Below, piece after piece: positions 10,305-40,742 of a stretch of DNA of 64,000 nucleotides. The notes beneath the pieces were generated by a model. It worked only from the letters and a program-made list of their open reading frames with translations, did no database searches and was not told the origin of the DNA. Each line of letters opens with the position of its first letter. Position 1 is the stretch's first letter. This stretch comes from Sphaerisporangium siamense (lineage in GTDB: Bacteria > Actinomycetota > Actinomycetes > Streptosporangiales > Streptosporangiaceae), in NCBI RefSeq assembly GCF_014205275.1, contig NZ_JACHND010000001.1:1178001-1242000 (forward strand), given 5' to 3'. The position numbers and the translations under genes were made by a program.

Positions 10305-11177
10305 TCAGCGGGCGCTGTAGCCGCCGTCCACGGTGATGACGCTGCCGGTGACGCCGCGGGACTCGTCCGAGGCGAGCCAGAGGCAGGCGTTCGCGACGTC
10401 GTACGCCGAGACCAGCCGCCGGGTCGGCTGGCCGTCCACGAAGACCTGCTCCTGGCGCTCGGCCGGGATGCCGAGGGCGTCGGCGATGCCGCCGAGCATC
10501 CGGCCCTCCAGCTCCGGCTCGTCGCGGACCGATCCCGGGCACAACGCGTTGACCCGGACGCCGGACGTCGCGTAGTCCAGCGCGGCGGCGCGGGTGAGCC
10601 CGACGAGCCCGTGCTTGGCCGCCGTGTAGTTCGCGAAGTGCGGGTAGCCGACCACGCCCGCGGTCGAGGCGACGTTGACCACGCTGCCGGCCCCGCGGTC
10701 CAGCATGTGCGGGACGACCAGGCGCATCATGCGCCAAGCGCCGGTCAGGTCGACGTCCACCATGAGCCGCCACTGCTCCTCGTCCAGCCCGTGGGCCGGG
10801 TGGCCCGCGGGCGTGGCCAGGCCCGCGTTGTTCACCAGGACGTCGGCGCGTCCGAGCCGGTCCAGCGTGTCGCCGACCGCCGCCGCGAGGTCGTCCGGGG
10901 AGCGCACGTCGGCGTGGCAGGTGACGACGGTCGCGCCGCGCTCCTCGCACAGCCGGCCGGTCATGCGCAACTGGGCCGCGGTCCCCAGCGGGTAGGTGGC
11001 GCCGGGGATGTCCGCGGCCACGTCGATCAGGGCGAGGTCGGCGCCTTCCGCCGCGAGCGCGAGCGCGCAGGCGCGGCCGATGCCGCGAGCGGCGCCCGTG
11101 ACGATCGCGACCCTGTGGTCCAGGCGGCCGGCGCGCCGGGGTGAAGTCGTCGTCACAGCACCTTCCTCGTGGGTCAT
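10305..11177 (-). CDS. SDR oxidoreductase with a mycofactocin-type insertion
   Basis: Short-chain dehydrogenase, 290 aa. Seen: TGAARGIG cofactor motif, NNAG, the catalytic Ser-Tyr-Lys set (NVASTAGVVGY, YTAAK) and a C-terminal ASDESRGVTG. Between beta2 and beta3 it carries an extra segment (YPLGTAAQLRMTGRLCEE) like that of the mycofactocin-coupled SDR/carveol dehydrogenase group, whose NAD(H) is held tightly. The ATG overlaps the NRPS stop (ATGA), so translation is coupled and the enzyme probably acts on a residue or product of this pathway. It ends the leftward EH-TE-NRPS-SDR operon. Substrate unknown. Confidence 0.85.
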   Translation of the reverse strand: MTHEEGAVTTTSPRRAGRLDHRVAIVTGAARGIGRACALALAAEGADLALIDVAADIPGATYPLGTAAQLRMTGRLCEERGATVVTCHADVRSPDDLAAAVGDTLDRLGRADVLVNNAGLATPAGHPAHGLDEEQWRLMVDVDLTGAWRMMRLVVPHMLDRGAGSVVNVASTAGVVGYPHFANYTAAKHGLVGLTRAAALDYATSGVRVNALCPGSVRDEPELEGRMLGGIADALGIPAERQEQVFVDGQPTRRLVSAYDVANACLWLASDESRGVTGSVITVDGGYSAR

Positions 11178-14155
11178 GCCGGACGGGCCTGCCGCCGCAG
11201 CACCGCCGCGAGCCCGCGCACGGTGGGGTTGAGGTAGATCTCGCGGGGCGGCAGCTCGGCCAGCCCGTGTTCGGCCATCACGGTGAGCAGGCGGATCGCG
11301 GTCAGCGAGTTCCCGCCCAGGTCGAAGAAGTTGTCGTCGGGACCGACGGGCGTCCGCAGGACCGCGGTCCACGCCGCCCGCACCGCCTCCTCGACGTCCC
11401 CGTTGACCAGTGCGGCCGGCGCGACCGGCGCGGCCGGGGCGGGTGCGGCCGTGGAGAGCTCGGCGAGCCGGTCCACGTCGAGCTTCCCGTTGGCGGTCAG
11501 CGGCAACGCCGCCACGACCGTGACCGAGGCGGGCACCATGTAGTCCGGCAGGACGCGGGCGACGCGGCGGCGGACCTCCTGCCCGGACGCGGCGTCCCCG
11601 GCGACGACGTAGGCGTCGAGCCGGGCGCTGTCCGGGTCCGGCCCCCGGCGGAGCACCACGGCGGCGGCCGTCACGGCGGGAACGGCCAGCAGCGCCGCCC
11701 GGATCTCCTCGGGCTCGATGCGGTACCCGCGCAGCTTGACCTGGTCGTCCAACCGGCCGAGATGTTCGAGCCGCCCGTCGGGGAGCAGCCGGCCGCGGTC
11801 GCCGCTGCGGTACATCCTGCCCGCCGTGAACGGGTCGGCCGCGAAGCGTTCGGCCGTCACCGCGGGAAGGTTGAGGTAGCCGTCGGCCACACCCGCGCCG
11901 CCCACCCAGATCTCCCCCGGCACACCGGGGGGCAGCAGCCGGCCCTCCTCGTCCATGACGTACACGTGCCAGCCGGGGATCGGCGGTCCGACCGAGCGGG
12001 ACCCGGTCAGCGCGTCCCACCGCGTCACCGTCTGCGCCGTCACGTGGACGGTCGTCTCGGTGATGCCGTACATGTTCACCACCCGGCACTCGTCCTCCGG
12101 GTGCCGGTCGAACCAGCGGAGCAGGACGCGGGGGTCGAGCGCCTCGCCGCCCAGGATCACCAGCCGGACGGCCAGCGGCTCCGGCCGGGTGTGGTCGTGG
12201 TCGATCAGGTGGGTGAGCGCCGAGGGCGTCTGGTTCAGGACCGTGACCCCCGTGCGGCGCAGCAGCTCGTGGAAGCTCGCCGGAGACCGGGCCACCAGGT
12301 AGGGGACCACGACGAGCCGCCCGCCGGTGAGCAGGCACCCCCAGATCTCCCACACGGAGAAGTCGAAGGCCGGCGAATGGAAGAAGGACCACACGTCCTC
12401 GGGCGACAGCCCGAAGTCCCGCTCGGTCGCCGCGATGAGAGCGGCCACGTTCCGGTGCGGCACCATCACGCCCTTGGGCCGCCCGGTGGACCCCGAGGTG
12501 TAGATGACATAGGCGGGATCGTCCGGCGTGACGCGCACGGGGTCGCCCGGGGTGCCGCTCACGGGGTCGGCGGGCGTGCCGCCGCCCTCGGCGAGCAGGG
12601 TCTCGACGGTCAGCACCGGCACAGCGCGGGCCTCGTCCCCGGCCGTGTCCCCGGCCTCGTGTCCAGCCTCGTCTCCGGCCTTGTTCTCGGCCGCGACGAG
12701 CAGCGCGGCGTCCGAGTCGCGGAGGATCGCGGCGATCCGCTCCGCGGGATAGCTCGGATGCAGCGGCACGTACGCGGCCCCGGCCTTGAGGACGCCGAGC
12801 ATGGTCGCGATGAGGTCCGGGGACGGGTCCAGGCGGACGCCGACCCGTGAACCGGCGGTGACGCCGCGCCGGCGCAGGCCGGCGGCGAGCCTCCCGGCGC
12901 GCGCGTCCAGTTCCCGGTACGTCAGCGACCCGCCGTCGTCCTCGACCGCGATCCGGTCCGGGTGCGCGGCGGCGCGGGCGGCCAGGGCCTCATGCACGCA
13001 GACGGCCGGCGCGTCCACCGCGTGGCGCGGGCGGCCGAGCCGGGCCACCCGCCGCTTCTCGGCGTCGTCGAGAAGCTCGACCTGGTCCAGAGGCGACGAC
13101 GGCGATGCGGTCAGCAGCCGCCCGGCCACGTGCAGGGTGTGCCCGACGAACCGCGCGGCGGTGTCGCGGCCGAACCGGTCGAGCCGGTGGTGGCACTCGC
13201 CGACGACGCGCCCGTCCGGCAGCAGGTCCACCGTGAGCGTCAGCGGGTAGAGCGGCGCCAGGTGCGGGACGTACGCGTCCTCGTCCCGCCGCGCCACCAG
13301 CACCCCGGCCGGGGCGCTCAGCACGTCGGGCAGCGCGGGATCACCGGACGGCTCCCAGGGCACCCCGGCGGCGAGCCGGTCGCGTACGCCCGACAGGTAC
13401 CGGCCGATGGTCGTCTCCCCCTTGGCGTCCGTGGGGACGAGGGTCAGCGTCTCGGCGCGCGCGGCGCCGTCCGGGGCGGTGGACAGGGCCGTGCCGACCA
13501 GCGCCCGATCGGTGCGCGCGTACCGGGCGAGCACCAGGCCGGCCGCCGCCACCAGGACGGCGTGCAGCTCGGCGGGTGACACGTCCGGCGCCACGGGCAC
13601 CCGGAACCGCCGTACCCCGTGCCCGGCGCCACTCTCCTCACGCCACGCCCGCGTCTCACCACGGAGGTCGCGGACGGCTCCGGCGAGCTCGTCCAGGTCG
13701 GCGTGCGGCCCGCCGGGCGGGGCCGTGACCTCGGCGCCGGTGAGGATCGACCTGGCGACGGGGCCGAGCAGCGCCCGTCCGATCCGGGCCCGGTGCGCGA
13801 CGACGACGAGGTCGGCGGCGCCGCCGGCGTACCGGAGGAGCACGGCCCGCAGCGGGGCACGGCCCGGGGCGAGTGGACGGTGCAGCTCGGCGGTCCTGCG
13901 GCGCCGGGCGAGCGGGCCGTCCGCCGCGCCGGAGACGTCCTCGGCCCACAGCCGCGGGGCCGCGTCGCCCAGGTCTCCCACGTCGTGCGCGTCGCCCACG
14001 GCGAGGAAGGGGTGATCCGCCGTGAGCCGGGCGAGATTCCGCGCCAGTGATTCGGCGGCCGGCGCGTCCGCGATCCGGAACGCGGCGGAGTGGCACAGCC
14101 GGGCGGCCTTCTCGGCCGCGGACAGGTGCGGCTCCCTGGGCGCCGGGTCACCCAT
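11174..14155 (-). CDS. NRPS, degenerate C - A(Thr) - PCP
   Basis: 993-aa NRPS protein. Residues 1-370 are condensation-like but degenerate: where HHxxxDG is expected the sequence reads HRARIGR (121-127), so it should not form peptide bonds. The A domain spans about 385-900 (YTSGSTGRPKG at 552-562, NGK 889-891). Pocket residues Asp598, Phe599, Trp602, Asn641, Ile667, Gly669, Met695, Val703, His704 and Lys891 give DFWNIGMVHK, the textbook threonine code. The PCP has Ser950 (LGGNS). There is no TE. It probably loads Thr in trans onto its own PCP for transfer to another protein. It overlaps the thioesterase upstream by 8 bp and the SDR downstream by 4 bp. Confidence 0.93.
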   Translation of the reverse strand: MGDPAPREPHLSAAEKAARLCHSAAFRIADAPAAESLARNLARLTADHPFLAVGDAHDVGDLGDAAPRLWAEDVSGAADGPLARRRRTAELHRPLAPGRAPLRAVLLRYAGGAADLVVVAHRARIGRALLGPVARSILTGAEVTAPPGGPHADLDELAGAVRDLRGETRAWREESGAGHGVRRFRVPVAPDVSPAELHAVLVAAAGLVLARYARTDRALVGTALSTAPDGAARAETLTLVPTDAKGETTIGRYLSGVRDRLAAGVPWEPSGDPALPDVLSAPAGVLVARRDEDAYVPHLAPLYPLTLTVDLLPDGRVVGECHHRLDRFGRDTAARFVGHTLHVAGRLLTASPSSPLDQVELLDDAEKRRVARLGRPRHAVDAPAVCVHEALAARAAAHPDRIAVEDDGGSLTYRELDARAGRLAAGLRRRGVTAGSRVGVRLDPSPDLIATMLGVLKAGAAYVPLHPSYPAERIAAILRDSDAALLVAAENKAGDEAGHEAGDTAGDEARAVPVLTVETLLAEGGGTPADPVSGTPGDPVRVTPDDPAYVIYTSGSTGRPKGVMVPHRNVAALIAATERDFGLSPEDVWSFFHSPAFDFSVWEIWGCLLTGGRLVVVPYLVARSPASFHELLRRTGVTVLNQTPSALTHLIDHDHTRPEPLAVRLVILGGEALDPRVLLRWFDRHPEDECRVVNMYGITETTVHVTAQTVTRWDALTGSRSVGPPIPGWHVYVMDEEGRLLPPGVPGEIWVGGAGVADGYLNLPAVTAERFAADPFTAGRMYRSGDRGRLLPDGRLEHLGRLDDQVKLRGYRIEPEEIRAALLAVPAVTAAAVVLRRGPDPDSARLDAYVVAGDAASGQEVRRRVARVLPDYMVPASVTVVAALPLTANGKLDVDRLAELSTAAPAPAAPVAPAALVNGDVEEAVRAAWTAVLRTPVGPDDNFFDLGGNSLTAIRLLTVMAEHGLAELPPREIYLNPTVRGLAAVLRRQARPA

Positions 14156-14912
14156 GGGACAGTCGCCCGACGAGCGCGAGGATCTCGGCCGCGGAGTCGA
14201 CCAGGTACATGTGCCCGCCGGGCAACTCGGCCACGTGGAACTCCGCGGCGGTGGCCGTGGCCCACCCCTCCAGCTCCGCCCGGGAGACGAGCCCGTCGTC
14301 GGCGCCGCGCACCGCCGTGATCGGCACGCGCAGCGGCGGGCGGGAGGCCGGCGGCCGGTAGTTCTCGTGCATCTCCACGTCGGCCCGCAGGCAGGGCAGC
14401 AGCAGCTCCCGCATCGTGGGATCCTCCAGCGCCGGATGCGAGTACCCGGCGAACTCCAGGACCCGCGCCAGGAATTCCTCGTCCGGCAGCCCGGTCGCCC
14501 GGTTCGCCCGCACCTCGGCGGGGCCGGGGGAACCGCTCACGACGAGGTGCGCGACGTCCGGACCGCCCGCGTCCTTGAGGCGGTGCGCCATCTCGTAGGC
14601 GAGGATCGCGCCCAGGCTGTGCCCGAAGATCACGACACGGGACCGCCCTGCCAGCTTTTCGAGCACCTCCCCGGCGAGGCCGTCGACCGCCTCGTGGACG
14701 TCCCGGTACGGGGTCTCGGTGAACCGCTGCTCCCGGCCGGGGAGCTGGACCGGGACGACCTCGACGGCCTCCGGGTCGTGGCCGCGCCAGGGCCGGAAGA
14801 ACCCGGCGCCCGCACCCGCGTACGGGAAGCACACCAACGTCGCGGGGTCCGCCTTCGTGCCTCGCATCGACCGCTGCTCCTTCGAGGGCTCGCCATCATT
14901 CGGAATCGTCAT
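14148..14912 (-). CDS. Type II thioesterase
   Basis: Stand-alone alpha/beta hydrolase thioesterase, 254 aa, of the GrsT/TycF editing group that frees mis-primed carrier proteins. Seen: LVCFPYAGAGAGFFRPW at the start, PVQLPGREQRF, the nucleophile elbow GHSLGA, and a late GGHMYL with the catalytic His. The start ATG 14912 overlaps the stop of the epoxide hydrolase (ATGA), and its end overlaps the NRPS start, so it is translated as part of this operon. Confidence 0.92.
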   Translation of the reverse strand: MTIPNDGEPSKEQRSMRGTKADPATLVCFPYAGAGAGFFRPWRGHDPEAVEVVPVQLPGREQRFTETPYRDVHEAVDGLAGEVLEKLAGRSRVVIFGHSLGAILAYEMAHRLKDAGGPDVAHLVVSGSPGPAEVRANRATGLPDEEFLARVLEFAGYSHPALEDPTMRELLLPCLRADVEMHENYRPPASRPPLRVPITAVRGADDGLVSRAELEGWATATAAEFHVAELPGGHMYLVDSAAEILALVGRLSHG

Positions 14913-16075
14913 CGCGCCGGCCGGCGTAAGGGGCGGAAGAACCGGCGGACGTCCTCGGTGAACAGTTCGGGCACCTCCAGCGCGGCGAAGTGGCCCCCGG
15001 TGTCGAACTCGGTCCAGGACGTGATGTTCGGGTTGGTGCGCTCGGCGAAGCGCCGGATCGGCGGCGCCACGTCGCCGGGGAACACCGCCACGCCGAACGG
15101 GACGGTCAGCGTCTCCGGCAGGCCGAAGGTCGCCGCCGAGTCCTTGTAGAGGCGGGCGGAGGACGCCGCGGTGCCGGTCAGCCAGTAGAGCATCACGTTG
15201 GTGAGGATGCGGTCGCGGCGCACCGCGTCCTCCGGGACCGCCGCCGGGCGGCTCCACTCCTTGAACTTCTCCACGATCCAGGCGAGCTGGCCGACCGGGG
15301 AGTCCGCGAGCGCGTGCGCGACCGTGTGCGGGCGATGGGTCTGCACCTGCGCGTATCCGGACAGCTCCGTGTTGAAGACATGAAGCCGGTCCACTCTCTC
15401 CATCTCGGCGGGAGTGAGCGCGGCCATGTCCCTGGGGTCGCCGGACGGGAAGGTGAGCAGGAAGTTCACGTGCACGCCGACGACGTGGTCCGGTGCGTGG
15501 ACGCCGAGCCGGCGGGAGATCAACGATCCGAAGTCGCCGCCCTGCGCGCCGTAGCGGGGGTAGCCGAGCAGCTCCATCAGCTCGGCCCAGGCGGACGCGA
15601 CCCGCGCGACGCCCCAGCCGGTGTCAGGGGTGGGCCCGGACAGGCCGAACCCCGGAATGGAGGGGATCACCACGTGGAAGGCGTCCGCGGGGTCGCCGCC
15701 GTGCGCCGCGGGATCGGTGAGCGGATCGATGACGTCGAGGAACTCCACCACGGAGCCCGGCCACCCATGCGTGATGACCAGCGGGAGCGCGTCCGGCTCG
15801 GGGGACCTGACGTGGAGGAAGTGGACGGTGGCGCCGGATATCTCGGCGGTGAACTGGTGGTGGGAGTTCAGCTCCGCCTCGGCCTTGCGCCAGTCGTAGG
15901 ACGTGCGCCAGTACGCGACGAGGTCCTTGAGGTAGTCGACGGGGACGCCGTCGTCCCAGCCGGTGCCGGCGGGCTGGCGCGCCCAGCGGGTGCGGGCCAG
16001 CCGGTCCGCCAGGTCGTCGAGGTCCGCCTGCGGGATGTCCACGCGAAACGGCCGGACAAGACCATCAGAGACCAT
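14909..16075 (-). CDS. Epoxide hydrolase (alpha/beta hydrolase fold)
   Basis: 388-aa epoxide hydrolase of the microsomal-EH-like group, with an N-terminal EHN region (FRVDIPQADLDDLADRLARTRW), the oxyanion motif HGWPGS, the nucleophile Asp in GGDFGS and the catalytic His in FDTGGHFAALE. It opens an epoxide to a diol, or in some natural product pathways cyclises by epoxide opening. It leads the operon EH-TE-NRPS-SDR and is divergent from a P450, which could make the epoxide. That pairing is inference. Confidence 0.88.
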   Translation of the reverse strand: MVSDGLVRPFRVDIPQADLDDLADRLARTRWARQPAGTGWDDGVPVDYLKDLVAYWRTSYDWRKAEAELNSHHQFTAEISGATVHFLHVRSPEPDALPLVITHGWPGSVVEFLDVIDPLTDPAAHGGDPADAFHVVIPSIPGFGLSGPTPDTGWGVARVASAWAELMELLGYPRYGAQGGDFGSLISRRLGVHAPDHVVGVHVNFLLTFPSGDPRDMAALTPAEMERVDRLHVFNTELSGYAQVQTHRPHTVAHALADSPVGQLAWIVEKFKEWSRPAAVPEDAVRRDRILTNVMLYWLTGTAASSARLYKDSAATFGLPETLTVPFGVAVFPGDVAPPIRRFAERTNPNITSWTEFDTGGHFAALEVPELFTEDVRRFFRPLRRPAR

Positions 16076-21615: not shown

Positions 21616-21842
21616 AGGCAAGCTCTCTTCCGACGTGAGACGGCGTCCATGAGAGAAATAGAAAACGAAATGGCCCGAGCACGAATGACCGGTGACCCTG
21701 GATGCCGCCGGCGGCGTGGCCGCGCGGCGTTCCGATTCCCTGGTCGGCTCTGTAGGTACTTTCTCAATGGGCCCTGTCCATGTCCAGCCCGCCGGCCGGG
21801 GCCTGTGGACATGGGGTTTCACCGAAGCGGAGAACGCGGATA

Positions 21843-21918: not shown

Positions 21919-23037
21919 TCAGGAAGTGACGCCGGATTCGCCGGTCAGCGTCAGGTACAGGTGCTCGAATCCGCGGTAGGTGCGGTTTCTGCGCCATCGA
22001 ACCTCGCGTACGCGCGCCTCGGGACAACGCCGGGCGAACAACGTGAGCACGGTGGTGGCCGTCAGGCGCGCGAGGGACGCGCCGGAGCAGTAGTGCATGC
22101 CGTGGCCGAACGCCAGGTGGTCGGCGTGGCGTCCTTCGTGGTGGGCGGCGGGCCGGTCGGACGCCGCCGGGGGTTCGAACAGGTCGCGGCCGTCGAGCGA
22201 GACCATGACCAGCTCGCCGCGTGCGATCCGGTGGCCGCCCAGCGCGGTGTCCTCGGCGGCCACCCGGGCCACGTGCCCGAGCGGGGCGTACAGGCCGAGG
22301 ACGCGTTCCACGATCGCGGCCGCCTCCTCGCCGGTTCGCGACGCCGCGACGCCGTCCTGCAGCCCGTTTTCGAGCATGTACCACAGCGCGAACGTGATGA
22401 GCGCGGCGGTGGTCTCCAGCCCGCCGAAGAGCATCATCGACGACGTGGCCAGCCGGTCGGTGTCGGTGTCGCCGGACCGGGCCCAGACGCCCTCGCCGTC
22501 CCCCTCCGGGAGGCCGTCGATGAACTCCTCCATCTCCCGGAGCGCCTCCTGGGCGCGCACCGCGTACTCGCGGCGGTAGGACGCCGCCAGGAAGTCGGCC
22601 AGCGCCCGCGCCCACCGCTGCTCGATGCCGGGCAGTTCGAGCACGTGGGCGACGGTGCGCGCCGAGATCGTGTCGGCCAGGTCCGCCACGGCGTCACCGG
22701 TCGCCGACTTCCCGAAGTCCGCCAACGCCTCCTCGACGATCGTGTGGACGACATCGCCGAGCGCGCGGGTCCGGCGGGGCGAGAACATCGGCTGGACGGC
22801 CCGCCGGGCGGTCTTGTGCCGTTCGCCGTCGAGCAGCGCGAACCACCGGCTCAGGGTGGCGATCAGGTGCGCGCACTGGTCGTGCATGTCGGCGGGCAGG
22901 TAGCTCAGGTTGGCGACCTCGAACGTCTCCGAGGACAGGCGCCGGTCCTCCAGCGCCTCCCGCGCGGCCTCGCCCCACACCACCCAGCAGGCCAGGTCGT
23001 CGTAGTAACGGACGGTGGACGTCCGGTCAGGCGGCAT
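21919..23037 (-). CDS. Cytochrome P450 lacking the ExxR motif
   Basis: 372-aa P450. The heme loop is canonical (FGHGMHYCSGASLAR, Cys317) and the I-helix reads FGGLETTAA (204-212). In the K-helix, where ExxR is expected, the sequence is AIVERVLGLYAPLGH (241-255), with no Glu-x-x-Arg. The N-terminus is also short, starting close to the first beta strand. ExxR-less P450s are known (Streptomyces CYP156/157) and are often of unknown function. The start has a strong GGGAGG, and the gene follows the MFS gene by 10 bp as the last gene of the NRPS operon. It may be a catalyst with altered redox or a binding protein. Confidence 0.88.
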   Translation of the reverse strand: MPPDRTSTVRYYDDLACWVVWGEAAREALEDRRLSSETFEVANLSYLPADMHDQCAHLIATLSRWFALLDGERHKTARRAVQPMFSPRRTRALGDVVHTIVEEALADFGKSATGDAVADLADTISARTVAHVLELPGIEQRWARALADFLAASYRREYAVRAQEALREMEEFIDGLPEGDGEGVWARSGDTDTDRLATSSMMLFGGLETTAALITFALWYMLENGLQDGVAASRTGEEAAAIVERVLGLYAPLGHVARVAAEDTALGGHRIARGELVMVSLDGRDLFEPPAASDRPAAHHEGRHADHLAFGHGMHYCSGASLARLTATTVLTLFARRCPEARVREVRWRRNRTYRGFEHLYLTLTGESGVTS

Positions 23038-23047
23038 CGTCCCTCCC

Positions 23048-24346
23048 TCACCCGCCGGCGAGAGCCGGTTCCGGTTCGTAGGTCTCCGGGAGGTCGCGCT
23101 CCTTGCGCATCGGGCTCAGCGCGAGGATGAGCCAGCAGACCGCGAGGACGCCCGTCATGATCCACATGGCTCCGCGGTATCCGACCACGTCGCCGAGGAC
23201 GCCGCCGAGCAGGGAACCGAGCGGGATCATGCTGTGGCCGATCGCCATGGCCGTCGCCACGACCCGGCCGAGCATGTGCGGCGGGCAGTACGCCTGCCGG
23301 AAGCTGCCGACCACGATGTTGGCCACGGCGACGCCGATGCCGACGAAGAAGCCGCCGAGCCCGAACAGCAGCATCCGCGGCCCCGGCCCGGCCATGGGCA
23401 TGAGCAGCGCGAACGGCGCGGTGGTGAGCTGCAGGAGGAGCAGGCCGCGGGCGGTGCCGACCCGCCGGGTGACCCTGGTGGTCACCAGCGCGCCGACGAT
23501 GCCGCCGACGCTGCCCGTGCTCAGCAGCACACCGACCGTGGCCGGGTTCAGCCCGACGGTGCGCACGAGGAACACGACCTGGACCGCCTGGTACCCCATC
23601 AGCGCCAGGTTCGTCACGGCGCCCCAGGTGACGATCGGCCGCAGGTAGCGGTCCCGGGCGACGAACCTGAGCCCCTCGGCGATCTGCCGGCCGAGGGGGT
23701 CGCGCCCCTCGCGGGAGGCGGGGGGCGGCTCGACCACGCGGATCCGGTGCAGGCAGAGCGCGGAGATCAGGAATGTCGCCGCGTCGGCCAGGAGCGCGGT
23801 GGCCGCGCCGAACGCCTGGGCGAGCAGGCCGGCCACGCCCGGCCCGGCGAACTGGGTGGTGGTCTCGCTGCCGTGCAGCTTGGCGTTGCCCTCCAGCAGG
23901 TCGCGGCCGTCGAGCACGGTGCGGACGTAGGCGTGGTAGGCGGGGTAGAAGCACGTGGCCGCGGTGCCGGAGATCAGCGCGACGGCGATGAGCTGGCCCA
24001 GGGTCAGCACGCCGAGCCACGCCGCCACCGGCACGCTCACGAACACCGCCGCGGCGACCAGGTCACACGCGATCATCAAGGGCCGCTTGCGCACCCGGTC
24101 CACCCACGCGCCCGCCGGCAGGCCCACGACCAGCCAGGGCAGCCACACCGCCGCGGCGAGGACGCCGACGGCGGTGGAGCTGGCGCCGAGGCTCACGACC
24201 GCGATCAGCGGCAGGGCGACCACGGTGATGCTGTTGCCGAGCTGGCTCGCGGTCTCGCCCGTCCACAACAGGCGGAAGTCCCGCTGGGCCAATACGCCCC
24301 ACCGCGACCGGGGCCGATCCGGGGTGTCCTTCGCCACGTCCGACAA
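23048..24346 (-). CDS. MFS exporter (EntS/MFS_3 type)
   Basis: 432-aa 12-TM major facilitator of the enterobactin-exporter-like group common in NRPS clusters. Seen: DFRLLWTGETASQLGNSIT at the N-terminus, AGAWVDRVRKRPLMI (motif A) and LLSTGSVGGIVGALV in the second half. It probably exports the peptide and gives self-protection. It lies 18 bp after the AsnRS-like gene and 10 bp before the P450 within the same operon. Confidence 0.9.
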   Translation of the reverse strand: MSDVAKDTPDRPRSRWGVLAQRDFRLLWTGETASQLGNSITVVALPLIAVVSLGASSTAVGVLAAAVWLPWLVVGLPAGAWVDRVRKRPLMIACDLVAAAVFVSVPVAAWLGVLTLGQLIAVALISGTAATCFYPAYHAYVRTVLDGRDLLEGNAKLHGSETTTQFAGPGVAGLLAQAFGAATALLADAATFLISALCLHRIRVVEPPPASREGRDPLGRQIAEGLRFVARDRYLRPIVTWGAVTNLALMGYQAVQVVFLVRTVGLNPATVGVLLSTGSVGGIVGALVTTRVTRRVGTARGLLLLQLTTAPFALLMPMAGPGPRMLLFGLGGFFVGIGVAVANIVVGSFRQAYCPPHMLGRVVATAMAIGHSMIPLGSLLGGVLGDVVGYRGAMWIMTGVLAVCWLILALSPMRKERDLPETYEPEPALAGG

Positions 24347-24364: not shown

Positions 24365-25426
24365 TTATGGCCGAACGACGGCCGAAGGGAACTCCAAGGG
24401 CTCGTTTACCCGGGATATTACAGGAATATCCCGGATGTCGTCGTGGCGCAGCACCCACATCAGAAAACGCTCCACGCCCATGCCGAAACCCGAGGTCCGC
24501 CGCGGAAATGCCTCCACCATGCGCACATACCACGCGTAGTCCTCTTCCCTGACGTTATGAAGCGCCATGGACTTACGCAAGGTCTGGGCGTCCTCGTGCC
24601 GCTCACCCGAGCCGACGATTTCGCCCGGGCCGAAAAGCAGGTCCGCGTTCCGCGCGGTTCTCCCGTCCGGGTCCTCGAATGCCTGGTAAAACGGCACGGC
24701 CAGCGCGTCGTAGTGCCGCACCCACACGAATTCGCTCACCCGCTCCATCAGCGCCCGCTCGCCCGCGCGGGTCAGCGTCCGCCAGGTGCCCTCGTCGCGG
24801 ACACCGCCGTCCACGTCGGCCACCACGCGGGCCGCCTCGTCGAAGGTGAGCTGTTCGAACGACGCCCGGCCCGCCATCCGCTCCAGGTGGGAGACGTCGC
24901 CCCGGGTGGCCGCCAGACGTCCGCCGAGCCGTTCGAGGATGGCGCCGGACAGCGCGCCGACATAGCCGTCCACGTAGCCGGTCAGGTCGTCCAGCCCGCC
25001 GGGGATCTCCGCCTCGCTGTGCGTGTACTGGTTCAGGTGGGTCTGGTCGGCGGGCTCGCCGCGGAACGACGGCGCGATCACGAAGCATCCGTCCGGCGTC
25101 AGGCGGCAGCCGTACTCCAGGGCGAACTGGAGGGAGTCCGGTAAGTACGTGCGCACCCCCGCCACCGTCACCGGCACCGGCTCGGAGTCGCTGCCCAGAG
25201 CGGTCGGGCAGGTCACGGACCGGGTCGTCAGCGGCAGCGGGAACCCGCGGAGCCCGCGCGAGCGGGCGTACTCGCCGGTGGTCGCGAGGATCACGTCGTA
25301 CAACTCCGCGATCAGCGCGGTCCAGGGCGAGCGCAGCGCCGTGACGAACGCGTCCGGCTCGTTGCTGTCGAACACGGCCGGTGGCCGCACCAAGTTCTGG
25401 ACCGTGGTGGCCTGCGTCATGGTCAT
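24365..25426 (-). CDS. Truncated AsnRS/AspRS-like class II synthetase core
   Basis: 353-aa protein with the catalytic fold of class IIb aminoacyl-tRNA synthetases. Motif 2 is PSFRGE (119-124) with following HLNQYTHSEAEI, and motif 3 is GFGMGVERFLMW (313-324), both closest to AsnRS/AspRS. The N-terminal OB-fold anticodon domain is missing: the protein starts at the dimer-interface region and is about 80-100 residues shorter than an AsnRS. A distinct conserved-looking block, ALGSDSEPVPV and TYLPDSLQFALEYGCR, lies before motif 2. It should adenylate a carboxylic acid, perhaps Asp or an Asp-like acid, and pass it to an amine or carrier protein. Its ATG overlaps the oxidase stop (ATGA). Confidence 0.8.
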   Translation of the reverse strand: MTMTQATTVQNLVRPPAVFDSNEPDAFVTALRSPWTALIAELYDVILATTGEYARSRGLRGFPLPLTTRSVTCPTALGSDSEPVPVTVAGVRTYLPDSLQFALEYGCRLTPDGCFVIAPSFRGEPADQTHLNQYTHSEAEIPGGLDDLTGYVDGYVGALSGAILERLGGRLAATRGDVSHLERMAGRASFEQLTFDEAARVVADVDGGVRDEGTWRTLTRAGERALMERVSEFVWVRHYDALAVPFYQAFEDPDGRTARNADLLFGPGEIVGSGERHEDAQTLRKSMALHNVREEDYAWYVRMVEAFPRRTSGFGMGVERFLMWVLRHDDIRDIPVISRVNEPLEFPSAVVRP

Positions 25427-26802
25427 GTCCCTTCGGATGCGCTGGTCGTGGGCCGCGCGGCCGCCGGGATCCGGCCACCGCGCAGGACGTCGTCCGGGTC
25501 GTAGACCCGCTTCACGGCGGCCAGTCGCCGCAGCCGCTGTTCTCCGTAGATGTCCGGAGGCGCCCATTCCTCGTCCTGGACGTAGTTCACGTAGGCCCCC
25601 GGCATGCGCGGCCCGCTCAAGGAATGGACGGCGCGGCGGGTCCAGGCGACGTTCTCCTCGTCGTGCGCCGGGTCCGTCCACTGGGCCGAGGCCGTGACGA
25701 TGTAGGGCGCGTCGCGGTTGGGGAAGGCGCCGTCGCGCTCGGGCGGGCGCGCGATCGCGCCGCGCAGGTATTCGAAGTCGATGCTGGACAGGGTCGAGGG
25801 CATCTCCTGGGCGCCGCTCAGCATCGACGCCACTGCCTCGTCGGGCAGGCCGGTCAGGTAGCCGGACTTGGTGTAGTAGCGGTGCCCGTGCGGCTCGCTG
25901 AGATCACCCATCCCCTGGAGCTCCAGGTAGGAGATCACCCGCCCGGTCGCCGTCTCCGGCGGCGCGGCGTCGAGCAGGGGCGCGATCCGCCGCGGCCCGT
26001 CCTGCGGGTCCCCGAAGTACGCGCCGCCCAACCGCAGCACGACGCCGCCGCCGTCCGCGGCGGCGGGCACCCGTTTGAGCGCGCCCACCACGTGCAGGGT
26101 GTCGGGCTGGTGCTCGGCGAAGGACCGGTAGGCGGCCAGCGCCCGTGCCGCCGTCTCCAGCGGGTACTGCGCGACATGGTGGTAGAGCGGCCCCACCGGG
26201 CGCAGCCGGAGCGTGAACCGGGTGACGACGCCGAAGTTGCCGCCCCCGCCGCCGCGCAGCGCCCACAGCAGCTCCGGGTGCCCGGTCTCGTCGGCCTCGA
26301 CGATCGAGCCGTCCGCGAGCACCACCTGCGCGGCGAGGATGTGGTCGCAGGTCGGCCCCCAGGTGCGGGCCAGCCAGCCGTAGCCGCCGCCGAGGGCGAG
26401 ACCGCCGAGGCCGGTGTGCGACACCACCCCCGCCGGGCAGGCCAGGCCGTAGCGCACGGTGGCGGCGTCGACGTCGCGCAGCAGGCACCCGCCGTCGGCG
26501 TACGCCACCCTGGCGCCGGCGTCGACGAGCACCCCCCGCATCGGCGACAGGTCGATCATGACGGCGTCGTCCGCGACGGCCGCGCCGGCGACGTTGTGCC
26601 CGCCGCCCCGCACGGTCACCGGGTGCCCGTTCGCCACGGCGAACCGCAGGGCGTCGGACACCTCCTCCGCCGTCCGGCAGCGCGCCACGCACACCGGGCG
26701 GCGGTCGTGCATGGCGTTCCACACCGCGCGCGCCTCGTCGTAGCCGGGGTTCCCGGGGTACAGGAAGTGCGGCCGGGACGGCCGGGGGCGGGCGCCGTTC
26801 AC
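25423..26802 (-). CDS. Berberine-bridge-type FAD oxidase with bicovalent flavin
   Basis: 459-aa oxidase of the FAD_binding_4/BBE group. The PP-loop RGGGHN carries His69 and the later TCDHI carries Cys152, the two residues that attach FAD covalently in bicovalent members. Also seen: [13 protein letters not shown], the [12 protein letters not shown] substrate-domain motif and the C-terminal BBE segment ([23 protein letters not shown]). Such enzymes oxidise alcohols, close rings or form double bonds in antibiotic pathways. The GTG start overlaps the NRPS stop (GTGA), so it is coupled to the TE-bearing NRPS and is likely a late tailoring enzyme. Confidence 0.92.
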
Positions 26803-34306: not shown

Positions 34307-35533
34307 TCAACGTGGTTCCTGCAGGAGACGGCGCAGCGCGTGCTGGAACCGGCCGGCCAGCTCGCGCACGTCCCCGGTGGTGAAGGACTCGGCCTCGGCC
34401 CGCAGCACGCCGCGGATGTTGCCGACCGTGCCCCAGGTGAACTCCCACAGCGCGGGCAGGTTCGCCCAGCGTGGCGCGATGGGCCGGGGCGAGGTGCGCA
34501 TCCCCGGCAGCGGCAGGTCCGGGAGCACGGTGTCGACGTTGACCACGTGCACGAGCAGCGGGTCGGCGCCGGGCCCGCGCGGGAGGCCGGCGGCCCGCAG
34601 GATGGCCGGGTAGGGCACGTCCTTGTGGGCCAGGGCGGCGTCCATCGACTCCGCGTGGACCCCGGCCAGGCCGGCGCCGCCCAGCCCGGCCGGCCACGTG
34701 GTGCGCACGGGCAGCGTGTTGATCAGCGGGCCCACCGTGGCCTGCGACGACGCGGTGTCGCGGATGGCGGCCGGCAGTCCCACGACCGACTCGCGCCCGT
34801 CGCCCGCCACCGCGACGCTCACCGCGGTGAACAGCACCGCGGCCGGCGACACCCGCGCGGCCCTGGCCAGAGCCCGGACGCCCCGGGTGTCGTCGGCGTC
34901 GAGCTCCAGGTCGGCCGCGTCGAACAGGCCGCGCCGCTCGTCGCCCGGCTCGGCCCGCGGCCGCGGCGGGACCGTCACGCCGCGCAGCCGTTCCCGCCAC
35001 CACGCGGCGTCCCAGCTCTGCTCCTGCTCCCACGCGGCGTGGTCGAAGAAGTCCGGCGCGGGGCCGAGGTCCGGCACGGCGCCGCGCACCGCCGCGCCGT
35101 ACGCCTCGCCGAGCTCGCGCAGCATGAGCGCCAGCGACCAGCTGTCCCCGGCGACGTGGTGGACGGCCAGCCCGAGGGCGTGCTCGTCCGGGGAGTCCGA
35201 CACCAGCACGGCCCGCACCGGCGGCTCGTCGGCGAGGTCGAACAGCGTGTCCCACAGCCCGGCCAGCTCGGGCGCGCCCGCCCGTGCGGGGCCGGTCACC
35301 CGGCGCAGGCCGGGGAGCCTCCCGGTGTACGGGAGGGCGACCTCGCCGTCGTAGGTGGACGACAGGACGGGATGCCGGCCCATGACGTGGTGCAGCGCGT
35401 GTTCGAGCGCTCCGGCGTCCACGCGGCCCGTGATGGAGAAGCACACCGGCATGGTGTACATCGGGCGGCCGGTCAGGGCCTCCTGCACCAGCATGGCCTG
35501 CTGCATGCCGGTCAGCGGTCGGGCGGCGGGCAC
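34307..35533 (-). CDS. Stand-alone NRPS condensation domain
   Basis: 408-aa free C domain: [11 protein letters not shown] (C1), the active-site HHVAGDSW (125-132) with both His and the Asp, [20 protein letters not shown] (C4/C5), and FxHxDVP-like [11 protein letters not shown]. The motif is intact, so it should be active. It lies 17 bp before the NRPS that begins with an unpaired PCP, so C plus that PCP probably form a split module served by an A domain in trans. GTG start 4 bp after the A-MT-PCP stop. Confidence 0.9.
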
Positions 35534-35537
35534 GAGA

Positions 35538-38210
35538 TCACGCCCTCACGGCGTCCGCGGCGCGCAGCACCTCGCCGGCCCACCCCGCGAAGCTCGTGGC
35601 GCGCAGGCACCGGCCCGGGCCGATGTCGGCGCCGGTCACTTCGCGGACCCGCGCGGTGACGCGGAGCGCGAGCAGCGAGTGCCCGCCCAGCGAGACGAAG
35701 TCGTCGTCGTCGTTGATCTGGTCCATGCCCAGCGCCACCCGCCAGATCTCGCGCAGGACCTCGCGCGGGGAGCCGTCCCCGCCCGGGACGACCGCGGTCT
35801 CGGGCGGCAGGTCCGGCGGGGGCAGGTCGCGGCGGGACACCTTGCCGTTGGGCAGCCGCGGCAGGTCCTCCAGGAACACGACGTGGCCGGGCCGCATCGC
35901 GGGCGGCAGCAGGGCGGCGGCGTGCCGGTGGATCTCGCGGGCCGTCAGGAGCTCCGGAGGGCGATTCGCGCCGCCGCGGGCCGGAGATGGCGGTGCGGCG
36001 ACGAGGGCGTCCGTCGCGGCCGGCAGGTGCGGCCCGTGCCGCTCGGTCGCGCGGTCGGTGGCCCTGGTGGCGTACACGTAGCTGACGTCGGCGTCGCGGC
36101 CGACCATCCAGTCGTGCTGGGTGTGCACCGTGAACCCGGCCTCCTTCAGGGCCGCCACGATCGGCGGTCCCGCGACGGTGCTGTGCTCGACCTCCAGGCA
36201 GACCTGCCGCACCCGCGCCCAGTGGTCGGGGCGGACGCCGCCGAGCACGCCGCCCTCCGCGCCCTCGACGTTGATCTTCAGCAGGTCCACCCGGTCCACG
36301 CCGTTCTGGTCGAGCACGGTGGACAGGTCGAGCGTCTGGACCGTGTACGTCGTGCCGCGCAGCCGGTCCTCGGTGTCCCGCCGCAGCTCCGCCATCTCGG
36401 CGGCCGGCACCGTGGCGGCGTGCGCGAGGTGCGACCGGACCAGGCCGGCCGCCTCCGCGCCGCGGTCCGCGCCGAGGCCGGACAGGTACGTGAGGCCGGG
36501 GAACGAGGTCAGCGTGGCGGTGCCGGCCCGGTCGGTGACCGCGACCGGGACCACCTGCGCGCGCACGTCGTTGAGGTCGAGGTTGACGCGCAGGTACGGC
36601 AGCACGTCCGGGTTGGGCTCCACCGCCACGACGCGCACCCCGGGGGCCTGGTCGTGCGCCCACAGGGCGAACAGCCCGACGTTCGCCCCGACGTCCACGA
36701 CCGTGTCGCCGGGCCCGATGCGGATGCCGAACCGCGCGTACTCGTCCTCCTCGAAGATCTGGCGGTACAGGAACATCGTCTCGTCGGGGGACGGCGTGGC
36801 CATCGGCCGGCCGTTCGGCAGCCGTATCCGCCGCAGCCCGTCGACCACGGGCGAGTTCGGCCGCCGCGCGGCCACGTACGCGACGAGCTGGACGCCGCCC
36901 GCGCCGTCGGGCACGCCGACGACGGCGGCGTCCCTGACGAGGGGATGCCGGCGGATCGCGCTGCTCACGCCCTCGGGTTCCACCCGGACGCCGCGCACCT
37001 TCACCTGGTCGTCGATCCGGCCGCGGAACTCCAGGTAGCCGGCCGGGGCGAGCCGGACCAGGTCGCCGGTGCGGTAGATGCGGCCGGGGCCCCACGGGTC
37101 GGGCAGGAAACGCCCGGCGGTGAGCGCGGCGTCGTCCAGGTAGCCGGTCGCCACCCCGGTGCCGCCGATCCACAGCTCGCCGGTCCGCCCGGCGGGCACC
37201 GGGGCGAGGTTCTCGTCGAGCACGTGGCAGGTGACGCCGTCGATCGGCCGTCCGATGGGGGCGATGGTCCCGTCGAAGGGCTCCCCGGCGTCCCACGTCG
37301 TGGCGTTCACCGACGTCTCGGTCGGCCCGTAGAAGTTGACGACGCGGCAGCCGAGCATGCCGCGCAGGCGCCGGACCAGGCCCATGTCCAGGGCCTCGCC
37401 GCCGCAGAACACCCGCCGCAGCGAGGTGCAGTACCGCAGTTCGTCCTCGTCCAGCACGTAGCGCAGCACCGAGGGGATGAAGTGCGCCGTGCTCACCTCG
37501 GCCTCGCGGATGAGCCGGACGAGGCCGCGGCTGTCGAACTGCAGGCCGGGCGGGGCGATGACGAGGGTGCCGCCGGCGACGAGCGGCGCGAAGATCTCGT
37601 GGATGGCGGCGTCGAACGCGGTGGAGGCCTTGTGGAGCACCCGGTCGCCGGCCTCGAAGGCGAAGACGCGCTGCCCCCACTCCAGCCGGTTGACGAGGCC
37701 GGCGTGGTGCAACACCACGCCCTTGGGCCGGCCCGTCGATCCGGAGGTGAACAGGATGATCGCCGGCTGGACGTCGGCGGCCGCTCCGCGCCACACGTCG
37801 CCGGGGGCCACCGGTCCGAGGTGGGCGCGGTCCTCGTCGAGGCGCAGCCAGGGCGCGGCGCCGGCGTCGGCGGGCGGGGCGTCCCCGGTGTGCAGCACCA
37901 CGCGGGGCCGGGCGGCGGCGCACATGCCGTCGAGCCGGTCGAGCGGGAACTCCGGATCCATGGGCACCGCGACCGCGCCCATGGTGGTGACCGCGAGCAG
38001 GGAGGTCACGTACTCGGCGGACCGCGGCAGGTAGAGGCCGACCCGGTCGCCGGGGCGCACGCCCGCGGACCGTAACTGCCTGACCGTGCGGCCGACCCGG
38101 TCCCACATGCGCGGGTAGGAGATCTCGCCGTTCACGTCGATGATCGCGGCGCGTCCCGGATCGTCCGCCGACGTGGTCCCGATCAGGTCGGGCAGGTATA
38201 CGGGCGGCAC
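35538..38210 (-). CDS. NRPS, A domain interrupted by FkbM-type methyltransferase, then PCP
   Basis: 890 aa. The A domain runs from 1 to about 450 (FTSGSTGRPKG 154-164, FYGPTE 293-298, TGDLVR 381-386, RGVRVEP 406-412). It is then split by an FkbM-family methyltransferase (about 470-715: GDTVVDVGANVGLFALWA, KINVEGAEGGVLGGV) before resuming at LLPPAMRPGHVVF and NGK (790). The PCP has Ser845 (LGGHS). Pocket residues Asp200, Ala201, His204, His243, Phe268, Gly270, Phe293, Val301, Asn302 = DAHHFGFVN, not a code I recognise. FkbM enzymes are usually O-methyltransferases. There is no C domain, so it is a loading or in-trans unit. GTG 38210 follows the upstream stop by 1 bp. Confidence 0.92.
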   Translation of the reverse strand: MPPVYLPDLIGTTSADDPGRAAIIDVNGEISYPRMWDRVGRTVRQLRSAGVRPGDRVGLYLPRSAEYVTSLLAVTTMGAVAVPMDPEFPLDRLDGMCAAARPRVVLHTGDAPPADAGAAPWLRLDEDRAHLGPVAPGDVWRGAAADVQPAIILFTSGSTGRPKGVVLHHAGLVNRLEWGQRVFAFEAGDRVLHKASTAFDAAIHEIFAPLVAGGTLVIAPPGLQFDSRGLVRLIREAEVSTAHFIPSVLRYVLDEDELRYCTSLRRVFCGGEALDMGLVRRLRGMLGCRVVNFYGPTETSVNATTWDAGEPFDGTIAPIGRPIDGVTCHVLDENLAPVPAGRTGELWIGGTGVATGYLDDAALTAGRFLPDPWGPGRIYRTGDLVRLAPAGYLEFRGRIDDQVKVRGVRVEPEGVSSAIRRHPLVRDAAVVGVPDGAGGVQLVAYVAARRPNSPVVDGLRRIRLPNGRPMATPSPDETMFLYRQIFEEDEYARFGIRIGPGDTVVDVGANVGLFALWAHDQAPGVRVVAVEPNPDVLPYLRVNLDLNDVRAQVVPVAVTDRAGTATLTSFPGLTYLSGLGADRGAEAAGLVRSHLAHAATVPAAEMAELRRDTEDRLRGTTYTVQTLDLSTVLDQNGVDRVDLLKINVEGAEGGVLGGVRPDHWARVRQVCLEVEHSTVAGPPIVAALKEAGFTVHTQHDWMVGRDADVSYVYATRATDRATERHGPHLPAATDALVAAPPSPARGGANRPPELLTAREIHRHAAALLPPAMRPGHVVFLEDLPRLPNGKVSRRDLPPPDLPPETAVVPGGDGSPREVLREIWRVALGMDQINDDDDFVSLGGHSLLALRVTARVREVTGADIGPGRCLRATSFAGWAGEVLRAADAVRA

Positions 38211-38211
38211 C

Positions 38212-39258
38212 TCACGACACCCTTTCCGCGACCGCCGCGAGCGCCATGCGCGGCACCTCGGCGACGCAATATCCGGACATTTCATGAACCGTTGGGCGGT
38301 GCGGCGTGTCCGAGGCGGCGCCGATGCGCGCCAGGTACGCCGAATGGTCGAAGATCTCCTCCAGCAGGCGCCAGGAGGACTCCTTCTCTCCGGCCATGAC
38401 CTGGTGGATGCCGTACATGTCGGCGACGTAGTCGCACATGCGGCGGCGCGCGGTCTCCGGGTCCCGTCCCCGCACCACGAGCGGGTCGTAGACGTCCACC
38501 ACACGCACGCCCGCCGGCAGTCGCTGGAACAGCGCCACCATGTCCTCGCGGGAGAAGTGCCGGTAGTCGTGGCCCGCCGCCGAGTGCGGATGCACCAGTT
38601 CGGCGAAGAACCGGGCCATGGGGCTGGCCTCGTCGAAATCGTGGATGACCACACGTCCCCCGGGGCGGGTGACGCGGAGCGCCTCCGCCATGGCCCGGGG
38701 CCGGTCCGCGGGGGCGATGTGGTGGGTGCCGTAGGCCAGCAGCACCGCGTCCACCGACGCGTCGCGCAGGAAGAGGTAGTCGGCCGCCTGGCGCACCGCG
38801 GGAAGGCCCATGGCCAGCGCCCGTTCGACCATCGTGCCGGAGATGTCGCCGGTCAGGACGGTCGGCGCCGCCGCGGTCCCGCCGGCGTTCTCGGCCACCG
38901 CGCGCGCGATCAGGCCGTCGCCGCCGAGCACGTCGAGCACCGTAACGTCGCCGGTCGCGCCGGCGGGCGTGGCGAGCCGCAGCAACCGCCGGGCCCCGGT
39001 CCACCGCACCGACACGTCCTGCTGCGCCTTGCGGTAGGAATCGCCCCGGCCGCTCGCGTCGGTCTCGAACTCGTTCACCGTGGACACCAGGGCCGACAAC
39101 CGGTCGGCCGACCGCATCCGCGCGTCGTCCAGCCTCGCGCGCAACTCCGGGTGGCGGACCGCCACCATGCGGAGGTATTCGTCAAGGGAGGCGGACGGAA
39201 GATATCGGTCCTTGGCCGGTGATCGCACAGCGGTTTCCAGGCGTGAGTTGACGGTCAT
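38212..39258 (-). CDS. SAM-dependent methyltransferase (class I)
   Basis: 348-aa methyltransferase with motif I VTVLDVLGGDGLIARAVAE, an acidic TGDISGTMV after strand 2, and GGRVVIHDFDE. An N-terminal helical extension of about 95 residues and a C-terminal cap surround the core. It is not closely recognisable as O-, N- or C-specific. It lies between mbtH and the A-MT-PCP gene in the operon, so it should act on this pathway. Confidence 0.85.
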   Translation of the reverse strand: MTVNSRLETAVRSPAKDRYLPSASLDEYLRMVAVRHPELRARLDDARMRSADRLSALVSTVNEFETDASGRGDSYRKAQQDVSVRWTGARRLLRLATPAGATGDVTVLDVLGGDGLIARAVAENAGGTAAAPTVLTGDISGTMVERALAMGLPAVRQAADYLFLRDASVDAVLLAYGTHHIAPADRPRAMAEALRVTRPGGRVVIHDFDEASPMARFFAELVHPHSAAGHDYRHFSREDMVALFQRLPAGVRVVDVYDPLVVRGRDPETARRRMCDYVADMYGIHQVMAGEKESSWRLLEEIFDHSAYLARIGAASDTPHRPTVHEMSGYCVAEVPRMALAAVAERVS

Positions 39259-39294: not shown

Positions 39295-39525
39295 CTACTC
39301 CGCGGGCCGCCGGGCGGATTCGTCCAGGGCGCGCGCCAGACTCGCCGGGCGCAGGTCGGTCCAATTGCGCTCGACATAATCCAGGCAGTCGGTTCTCGAT
39401 CCTTCGTGGACCACGTCCCATCCCGCGGGAACGTCCACGGAAGGCAGCCAGAGAGAATGCTGACGCTCGTGGTTGACGAGGACCAGGAACGCACCATCGA
39501 CATGGTCGAAAGGGTTTTCCGGCAC
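39295..39525 (-). CDS. MbtH-like protein
   Basis: 76-aa MbtH family chaperone that binds and activates NRPS adenylation domains. Seen: NPFDHVDGAFLVLVNHERQHSLW, DVPAGWDVVHEG and CLDYVERNWTDLRPASL. The usual SLWP reads SLWLP here. GTG 39525 has AAAGGGG upstream and gives the normal length. One copy probably serves all four A domains in the locus. Confidence 0.95.
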   Translation of the reverse strand: MPENPFDHVDGAFLVLVNHERQHSLWLPSVDVPAGWDVVHEGSRTDCLDYVERNWTDLRPASLARALDESARRPAE

Positions 39526-39610
39526 ACTGAGCCCCTTTGGCAGGAATAGGTGGGTCGGCCGATCGGCGGCCCGCGTCACGGAGCCCGTCCGGCGACGCGA
39601 ACGGAGCGGG

Positions 39611-40606: not shown

Positions 40607-40742
40607 TGGTCGCTCCAAAGTCAAGGGCTGCGTCCAAAAAGAGGAGTATCGGCAGGGGTGTACCGGGTGGTGCCATCGTCAGGCCTGCGCCGCCGTCCAA
40701 TCAAGTAATCCCGTACCGCGATAAGAACGCGGCGGGCGTCGC

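Follow-up and report, generated by a model that had tools for sequence, protein, structure and literature searches.

The gene at positions 24365..25426 of the window, by which we mean the whole stretch of 64,000 nucleotides of Sphaerisporangium siamense DNA that was analysed, encodes a ligase with an asparaginyl-tRNA synthetase (AsnRS)-type core. By sequence comparison and structure modelling, this core was shown to carry ATP-handling residues and a predicted Asn-type pocket, and to have no anticodon-binding domain. Our best explanation, to which we give a probability of about 0.47, is that the ligase is a tRNA-independent class II enzyme of the AgnA family, which would make Asn-AMP (or methyl-Asn-AMP) and form an amide with an intermediate of its cluster, and would not charge tRNA for translation.

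Gene, fold and family of the ligase

The ligase ORF (24365-25426, minus strand) starts with ATG and encodes 353 amino acids. Since its GC fractions at the three codon positions are 0.69/0.49/0.90, and dN is 0.018 against a dS of 0.121 in the comparison with a 97 % identical gene of the same genus, the gene is under purifying selection. The FAD-oxidase ORF ends at 25423 and thereby shares 4 bases with the start of the ligase ORF, whose ATG is at 25426; the MFS ORF begins 18 bases past the ligase stop codon, provided that its first TTG is the start. The first-pass annotation had described the gene as coupled between an FAD oxidase and an exporter in an NRPS cluster, and we found the same arrangement. 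The genes are as follows.

24365..25426 (-), AsnRS-like ligase, assigned to the AgnA family (ORF, Pfam/NCBIfam, model, pocket alignment)
25423..26790 (-), FAD-binding oxidase; 5' end approximate (long ORF to 27213, homology from 26778)
23048..24346 (-), MFS exporter
21919..23037 (-), cytochrome P450; homologues lie near the ligase in L028, L029 and L115
26799..34289 (-), NRPS PCP-C-A-PCP-C-A-PCP-TE; first PCP without an A domain; codes DAYAWGGTFK and DVWQLHVDDK
34307..35533 (-), stand-alone condensation domain
35538..38654 (-), NRPS A-MT(FkbM-like)-PCP; code DAHHFGFVNK; gene start approximate
38212..39258 (-), SAM methyltransferase; conserved in the L115, L132 and L133 clusters (57-64 %)
39343..39579 (-), MbtH-like protein
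39611..40624 (-), methyltransferase, weakly 2-ketoarginine-methyltransferase-like (below the model cut-off)
40831..41943 (+), class I/II aminotransferase
11174..14155 (-), stand-alone A-PCP with a long N-terminal part; code DFWNIGMVHK; likely supplier of the PCP without an A domain
14148..15257 (-), thioesterase-domain protein; type II, LgnA-like by context only; no NCBIfam match

Pfam matched tRNA-synt_2 at residues 85-334 of the 353-residue product (E 8e-26), and no anticodon-binding domain was among the Pfam matches. None of the 14 NCBIfam models listed for the ligase reached its cut-off: the best, 'asparagine synthetase A', gave 198.4 bits (cut-off 322), and the two asparagine--tRNA ligase models gave 99.3 of 414 and 96.6 of 342.6 bits. 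The AF2 model, built from 60 family sequences (pLDDT 90.2, pTM 0.90), has no secondary structure in residues 1-25, and since its fold begins with a helix at residue 26, no space is left for an OB-fold. The modelled ligase is thus without the anticodon-binding OB-fold, in agreement with the earlier claim that this domain is gone. The top Foldseek match of the model was an AsnRS with bound Asn-AMP (1x54, E 1.2e-24, TM 0.79), which has the same pocket residues; the ligase differs from AsnRS in lacking the anticodon-binding domain, in a longer lid loop and in an Asp (D97) at the place of a Gln.

Counting the own genome each time, 4 of 297 genomes at the level of the taxonomic family carry a close homologue of the ligase; for the class the figure is 4 of 394, and for the phylum 2 of 396. 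The own genome holds three tRNA-synt_2 genes including the ligase; the other two exceed their NCBIfam cut-offs, one as a bacterial AspRS and one as an 'aspartate--tRNA(Asn) ligase', and GatB is present. An indirect Asn-tRNA route fits, because AspRS, aspartate--tRNA(Asn) ligase and GatB are all there, and the ligase is not a housekeeping enzyme. A LysRS identity for the third tRNA-synt_2 gene was considered and rejected, NCBIfam assigning that gene to aspartate--tRNA(Asn) ligase with 416 bits (cut-off 353).

An eight-member alignment was run against named genomes and found 114 relatives; 80 loci were retained. The first-pass annotation had proposed a profile search to define the family and its gene neighbours; the result here was the AgnA family in two settings. 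The hosts include Actinomycetota, Bacillota, Pseudomonadota, Myxococcota, Chloroflexota and candidate-phylum bacteria, among others. In a quick tree of 99 rows with SH-aLRT support only, from which L011, L019 and L023 were left out and in which L013 stood in a wrong frame, the 85 rows of what we call family A form one group (SH-aLRT 85), and the window ligase lies within a clade of 17 rows (SH-aLRT 100), the window clade. Family B, a second AsnRS-like family, falls outside family A.

Kim et al. 2006 reportedly recognised AgnA as a truncated AsnRS. A plasmid search returned this protein, the 'Agrocin84-synthetase' of pAgK84, with 38.5 % identity over 91 % of the query (E 6e-58), and the tree places it at the base of family A (SH-aLRT 85), although its branch is long and this placement unsure. 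AgnA is the nearest characterised relative of the ligase, and like it has a truncated AsnRS core, an Asn-type pocket and a place in a biosynthetic cluster; the consulted part of PMC4392301 describes it as a truncated AsnRS homologue without an anticodon-binding domain that serves antibiotic synthesis. By its sequence, the ligase belongs to a broad bacterial AgnA family, and this homology, together with the AsnRS-type core, speaks for the earlier proposal of a biosynthetic ligase core.

It is very unlikely that the ligase charges a tRNA through the acceptor end alone, for a tRNA-dependent step, or that it is a leftover AsnRS. It does retain the catalytic motifs of an aaRS, and in four window-clade loci which have no FAD oxidase (L033, L035, L036 and L040) a YbaK-type aminoacyl-tRNA editing domain sits just upstream of the ligase, in two of them within one open frame (L040:9398-11032, L035:9431-11071); such a domain would fit a tRNA ester as the product. 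However, the anticodon-binding domain is missing, the NCBIfam AsnRS scores (97-99 bits) stand against cut-offs of 342-414, and no tRNA-dependent transferase was recognised among the window cluster genes scanned.

Catalytic residues and side-chain pocket

Class II motifs 2 and 3 had been noted as intact, and they are: motif 2 reads FRGE, with R122, E124 and H130, and motif 3 reads GFGxGxER, with R320. Position 124 is Asp instead of Glu in 2 of the 17 window-clade rows, and S98, Q100, R122, H130, E269 and R320 are kept across all family A rows. A check of key residues for lost ATP binding, in which R122, H130, E269 and R320 were all found kept, is consistent with retained ATP handling. The AlaRS-like AcmF of ascamycin is likewise a truncated class II aaRS-like enzyme, in its case from a nucleoside antibiotic cluster, but the part of PMC12945691 consulted has it without most of the ATP-binding residues that the window ligase keeps.

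The extra block that had been taken as a hint of a distinct subfamily stood in part. The subfamily is distinct, and ALGSDSEPV sits in a loop that exceeds its counterpart in the T. thermophilus and P. horikoshii AsnRS alignments by 5-6 residues; G78, S79 and D80 are invariant across 80 aligned sequences, and the alignment would place the block at the expected mobile lid over the amino acid, in a region of lower model confidence (about 69 at residues 61-80). The second half, YLPDSLQFALEYGCR, is no insertion: it aligns to the AsnRS element YLSQSAQLYLE, and an invariant Asp of this region (D97) replaces the AsnRS Gln.

For the pocket, family A was aligned with P. horikoshii AsnRS and Asp-type relatives, the misread L013 being dropped, and we took the roles of the positions from E. 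coli AspRS and archaeal AsnRS structures. On this assumption, L103, H136, E138 and R276 correspond to Lys198, Gln231, Asp233 and Arg489 of E. coli AspRS, while S98 and Q100 are presumably the alpha-amino ligands. The AsnRS-like residues L103, E104, H136, E138, E140 and R276 are found in 17/17 window-clade rows, in 67/67 other family A rows and in AgnA, so that the ligase has L103, H136 and E138 in place of the Asp-binding set Lys198, Gln231 and Asp233 (E. coli AspRS numbering). The family B rows (7/7) have K, Q, Q and D at positions 103, 104, 136 and 138, an Asp-type pocket. The 80 loci were fetched with two peptide patterns (residues 93-101 and 136-144), at least one match being required per locus, and the patterns themselves account for part of the conservation at 97-100 and 136-140, which they cover; L103, E104, R122, R276 and R320 fall outside them. 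Judged by these residues, the pocket is of the AsnRS type and not of the Asp type. A third AsnRS-like family, family C (L008 and L009), also has an AsnRS-type pocket. The pocket type may not tell the final product, because AgnA keeps this pocket though agrocin 84 carries a methylpentanamide (the latter from PMC4392301).

These residues bear on the idea that the ligase amidates in the manner of asparagine synthetase A, adenylating an acid of the cluster and adding ammonia. Asparagine synthetase A is its best NCBIfam match and the annotation of some relatives, and the AsnRS-like SlgZ serves the biosynthesis of the streptolydigin tetramic acid (PMC5357945, in the part consulted). We nevertheless consider amidation unlikely: the score stays under the cut-off, the AsnRS set replaces the Asp-binding Lys/Gln/Asp, and Streptomyces sp. 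NBC_00829, whose homologue is 68 % identical to the ligase and lies in the same cluster core, has a separate Asp-type gene beside a methylaspartate mutase. SlgZ itself, an AsnRS-like enzyme of a natural-product cluster as the ligase is, matches family B by gene context; the pocket of that family is Asp-type, and its place in the tree is outside family A. The archaeal AsnRS-like asparagine synthetase A (3p8t/3rex), which had been offered as a parallel, shares the class II core without the anticodon domain, its structure 3rex giving a TM of 0.68 to the ligase model. It is not supported as the parallel: its pocket is Asp-type, the asparagine synthetase A score of the ligase stays under the cut-off, and AgnA is nearer.

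Cluster genes, the unpaired carrier protein and family neighbours

The cluster runs A-MT-PCP, C, PCP-C-A-PCP-C-A-PCP-TE, FAD oxidase, ligase, MFS exporter and P450, with the MbtH-like protein and methyltransferases upstream. The A domain at 27882-29354 carries the code DVWQLHVDDK, which recurs in nine window-type loci (WIN, L108, L028, L029, L031, L032, L048, L111 and L138); a peptide prediction from the A-domain codes was abandoned, as this one could not be assigned a residue. Between the two NRPS parts lie genes of the catechol meta-cleavage type (17588-18367 and 20722-21822; 2-oxopent-4-enoate hydratase-like and acetaldehyde dehydrogenase), which are 92-94 % identical in a genome of the same genus.

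The first PCP of the large NRPS has no A domain, and a PCP profile search found no free-standing PCP in the window. We take DFWNIGMVHK to be a Thr code, and a Thr A-PCP with a thioesterase accompanies a PCP without an A domain in the window, L028/L132, L029/L133, L031/L134 and L048. For legonmycin, an A-PCP/TEII cassette has been shown to deliver Thr to a carrier that has no A domain and stands in a C-T-C arrangement (PMC8748450, part consulted); positions 11174-15257 of the window resemble this LgnB/LgnA cassette, the likeness to LgnA being one of context, without the LgnA sequence. Because the window holds such a cassette, as legonmycin does, the residue on its A-less PCP is by analogy likely Thr, possibly dehydrobutyrine. 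The window's unpaired PCP would then not need the ligase, a point that belongs to our best explanation and is as tentative as the rest of it.

As one possibility, the first-pass annotation had suggested that the ligase loads the free ACP or an unpaired PCP; loading of the unpaired PCP we do not favour for the window. Loading in trans has precedent in the aa:CP ligases, homologues of SerRS, AlaRS and GlyRS with a class II aaRS core that work outside translation without the tRNA domains (PMC9437257, in the part consulted), but these belong to other aaRS families than the ligase. The unpaired PCP of the window is itself an argument for loading, and so are L038 and L039, where the genes around the ligase provide two PCPs, one in a PCP-C gene and one free, but a single stand-alone A domain, and where no match to a TEII like that of the window was obtained; in these two loci, carrier loading by the ligase is possible. 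For the window ligase it is quite improbable. The Thr A-PCP and TEII stand beside the A-less PCP in the window, L028, L029, L031 and L048, the stretch of NBC_00829 read (37 kb) has no unpaired PCP, and an NRPS-type cluster is present in only 11 of the 66 loci outside the window clade. The ligase as the missing A domain for the window's unpaired PCP (PCP2) was rejected in view of NBC_00829, the Asn/Asp A domains described below and the Thr cassette. The order in L038 (5184-12525) is PCP-C gene, free PCP, ATP-grasp, FAD oxidase, ligase and stand-alone A domain.

Neighbours were counted at 79 loci, that is, the 80 without L030, which duplicates L029 at the opposite end of the chromosome. Gene clusters came from BLAST and Louvain grouping of simple ORF calls in flanks of up to 10 kb a side, and each took its name from the one or few representatives that were scanned; a gene anywhere in the flanks counts, some loci are cut off by the end of their contig, and the lack of independence among related loci makes Fisher tests on these counts a rough guide. 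Outside the window clade, an S66 (MccF/LdcA-type) peptidase is found in 47/66 loci (41 without ORFs outside 300-420 aa), a methyltransferase of cluster c2 or c7 in 47/66, and a further aaRS-like gene in 21/66, which includes c45 and c38 and rises to 30 if c12 and c17 are counted, some representatives of which match aaRS weakly or not at all. These extra genes are ProRS-, GlyRS-, HisRS-, LeuRS-, CysRS- or GluRS-like, and chance neighbours may be among them. HIT gene clusters occur in three and a nucleoside phosphorylase in two of the 66. The S66 background is sparse: about 59 Mb of sequence from nine whole genomes, eight of which belong to these loci, contains 23 such genes. The S66 proteins are not plainly LdcA, as 10/10 of those tested fell well under the NCBIfam cut-off for muramoyltetrapeptide carboxypeptidase; none of the ten matched an MccF model.

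These neighbours resemble the gene set of pAgK84, in which agnA is accompanied by a methyltransferase, a resistant LeuRS and an 'MccF-like protein', and, together with HIT and GNAT genes, the known self-immunities to microcin C-type nucleotides, MccF, GNAT and HIT (PMC7157772, in the part consulted). For this reason the analogy points to aminoacyl-nucleotide antibiotics for much of the AgnA family.

Sets like that of agrocin also occur elsewhere. L116 (9962-18612), L100, L082, L106 and L042, from Xenorhabdus, Providencia, a Clostridia bacterium, Micavibrio and Streptomyces, have an AgnA-like gene, a methyltransferase, an S66 gene and a LeuRS, some with an added nucleoside phosphorylase or ProRS-like gene; new LeuRS-targeting nucleotide antibiotics are a possible product. 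The row of Xenorhabdus bovienii comprises an AgnA-like gene, a methyltransferase, S66, nucleoside phosphorylase, two VOC-type genes, LeuRS and an 'aminoacyl--tRNA ligase-related' gene. On a Pantoea agglomerans plasmid (L114:8395-9990), a single gene joins a GNAT acetyltransferase to an AgnA-like ligase and has an MFS gene as its neighbour, under an annotation as GNAT only; the plasmid is the one read out of six matches.

The window ligase might itself act as AgnA does and build an aminoacyl-nucleotide (N-acyl phosphoramidate) warhead, asparagine providing both the amino acid and the nitrogen and the NRPS peptide forming the Trojan-horse part. Its homology to AgnA, the shared pocket and the S66, aaRS-like, HIT, nucleoside phosphorylase and fused GNAT genes near its relatives all lie on that side. 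We hold this to be improbable all the same, since the window clade has the S66, other aaRS-like and HIT clusters in 0/13 loci and no nucleoside-processing gene was among the window genes scanned.

The window clade also lacks the c2/c7 methyltransferase in its 13 loci (0/13), and it is tied to FAD oxidase, NRPS or ATP-grasp ligases. By gene cluster, an FAD oxidase adjoins the ligase in 7/13 window-clade loci against 0/66 elsewhere; by direct search, it does so in 12 of the 17 clade members, and the gene was found in no locus outside the clade. Of the other five members, four are the loci with the YbaK-type editing domain. AgnA differs in its partners, and the comparison says that the window clade has left the nucleotide-antibiotic setting for NRPS clusters.

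A possible methyl-asparagine supply and the proposed reaction

The view of the ligase as an Asn- or methyl-Asn-activating enzyme draws on the cluster of NBC_00829, which contains the methylaspartate mutase, a glutamate synthase-like gene and a family B gene besides the ligase homologue. In the 37 kb stretch there are two A domains and two PCPs, and we take neither A-domain code (DAHHFGQVNK and DALQMAGGFK) to be an Asn/Asp code. Streptolydigin tetramic acid biosynthesis uses the slgE1-E3 genes with SlgZ (PMC5357945, part consulted), a set that the mutase, glutamate synthase-like and family B genes of NBC_00829 resemble in gene context, without a SlgZ sequence comparison. By this analogy, the mutase and the family B gene would supply methyl-Asn, and since neither A domain in view is predicted to take it, the AsnRS-type ligase is its likely activator. 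It is because this supply leaves the ligase as the likely activator that we favour Asn-AMP or methyl-Asn-AMP.

Further observations stand against an Asn ligase. In the own genome, as in 8 others of the 16 genomes searched, there is no methylaspartate mutase, so a general supply of methyl-Asn was rejected; besides NBC_00829, the gene was found in the L034 genome, about 29 kb from the ligase. Another concerns A domains adjoining the ligase, with the code DLTKVGEIGK in L032 and L111, which we take to be Asn-type, and DLTKVGHIGK in L034, presumably Asp-type. Given the Asn-type domains next to the ligase in L032 and L111, Asn can also enter via the NRPS.

In the reaction that we propose, L-asparagine or an analogue such as 3-methylasparagine would react with ATP on the ligase to give Asn-AMP. 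The asparaginyl group would pass to a nucleophile made by the cluster, most likely an amine of the NRPS peptide, with an amide as the result, and the coupled FAD oxidase would then act on this product or on its partner. For the AgnA family as a whole, a more speculative scheme, to which we attach little probability, would make it the class II-synthetase counterpart of MccB: free asparagine would be adenylated, its side-chain amide would close to an aminosuccinimide, and the nitrogen would end up in the N-acyl phosphoramidate. S66 peptidases, whether for immunity or as amidases of the biosynthesis, and second aaRS-like enzymes of various kinds would protect against the nucleotide or re-acylate it, which would amount to a large family of aaRS-targeting antibiotics, and the window clade would have turned the Asn-AMP chemistry to NRPS peptides.

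AsnRS-like biosynthetic enzymes are already known in AgnA and SlgZ. In our searches of the open-licence literature, we found no paper on an NRPS- and oxidase-coupled AsnRS-like member and no assay of the reaction of AgnA. The present comparison says what the AgnA family should bind, namely asparagine, as predicted from its residues; it shows the family to be widespread in bacteria and singles out one clade in NRPS clusters. A tRNA-free Asn ligase, if the reading holds, would be a useful amide-forming catalyst.
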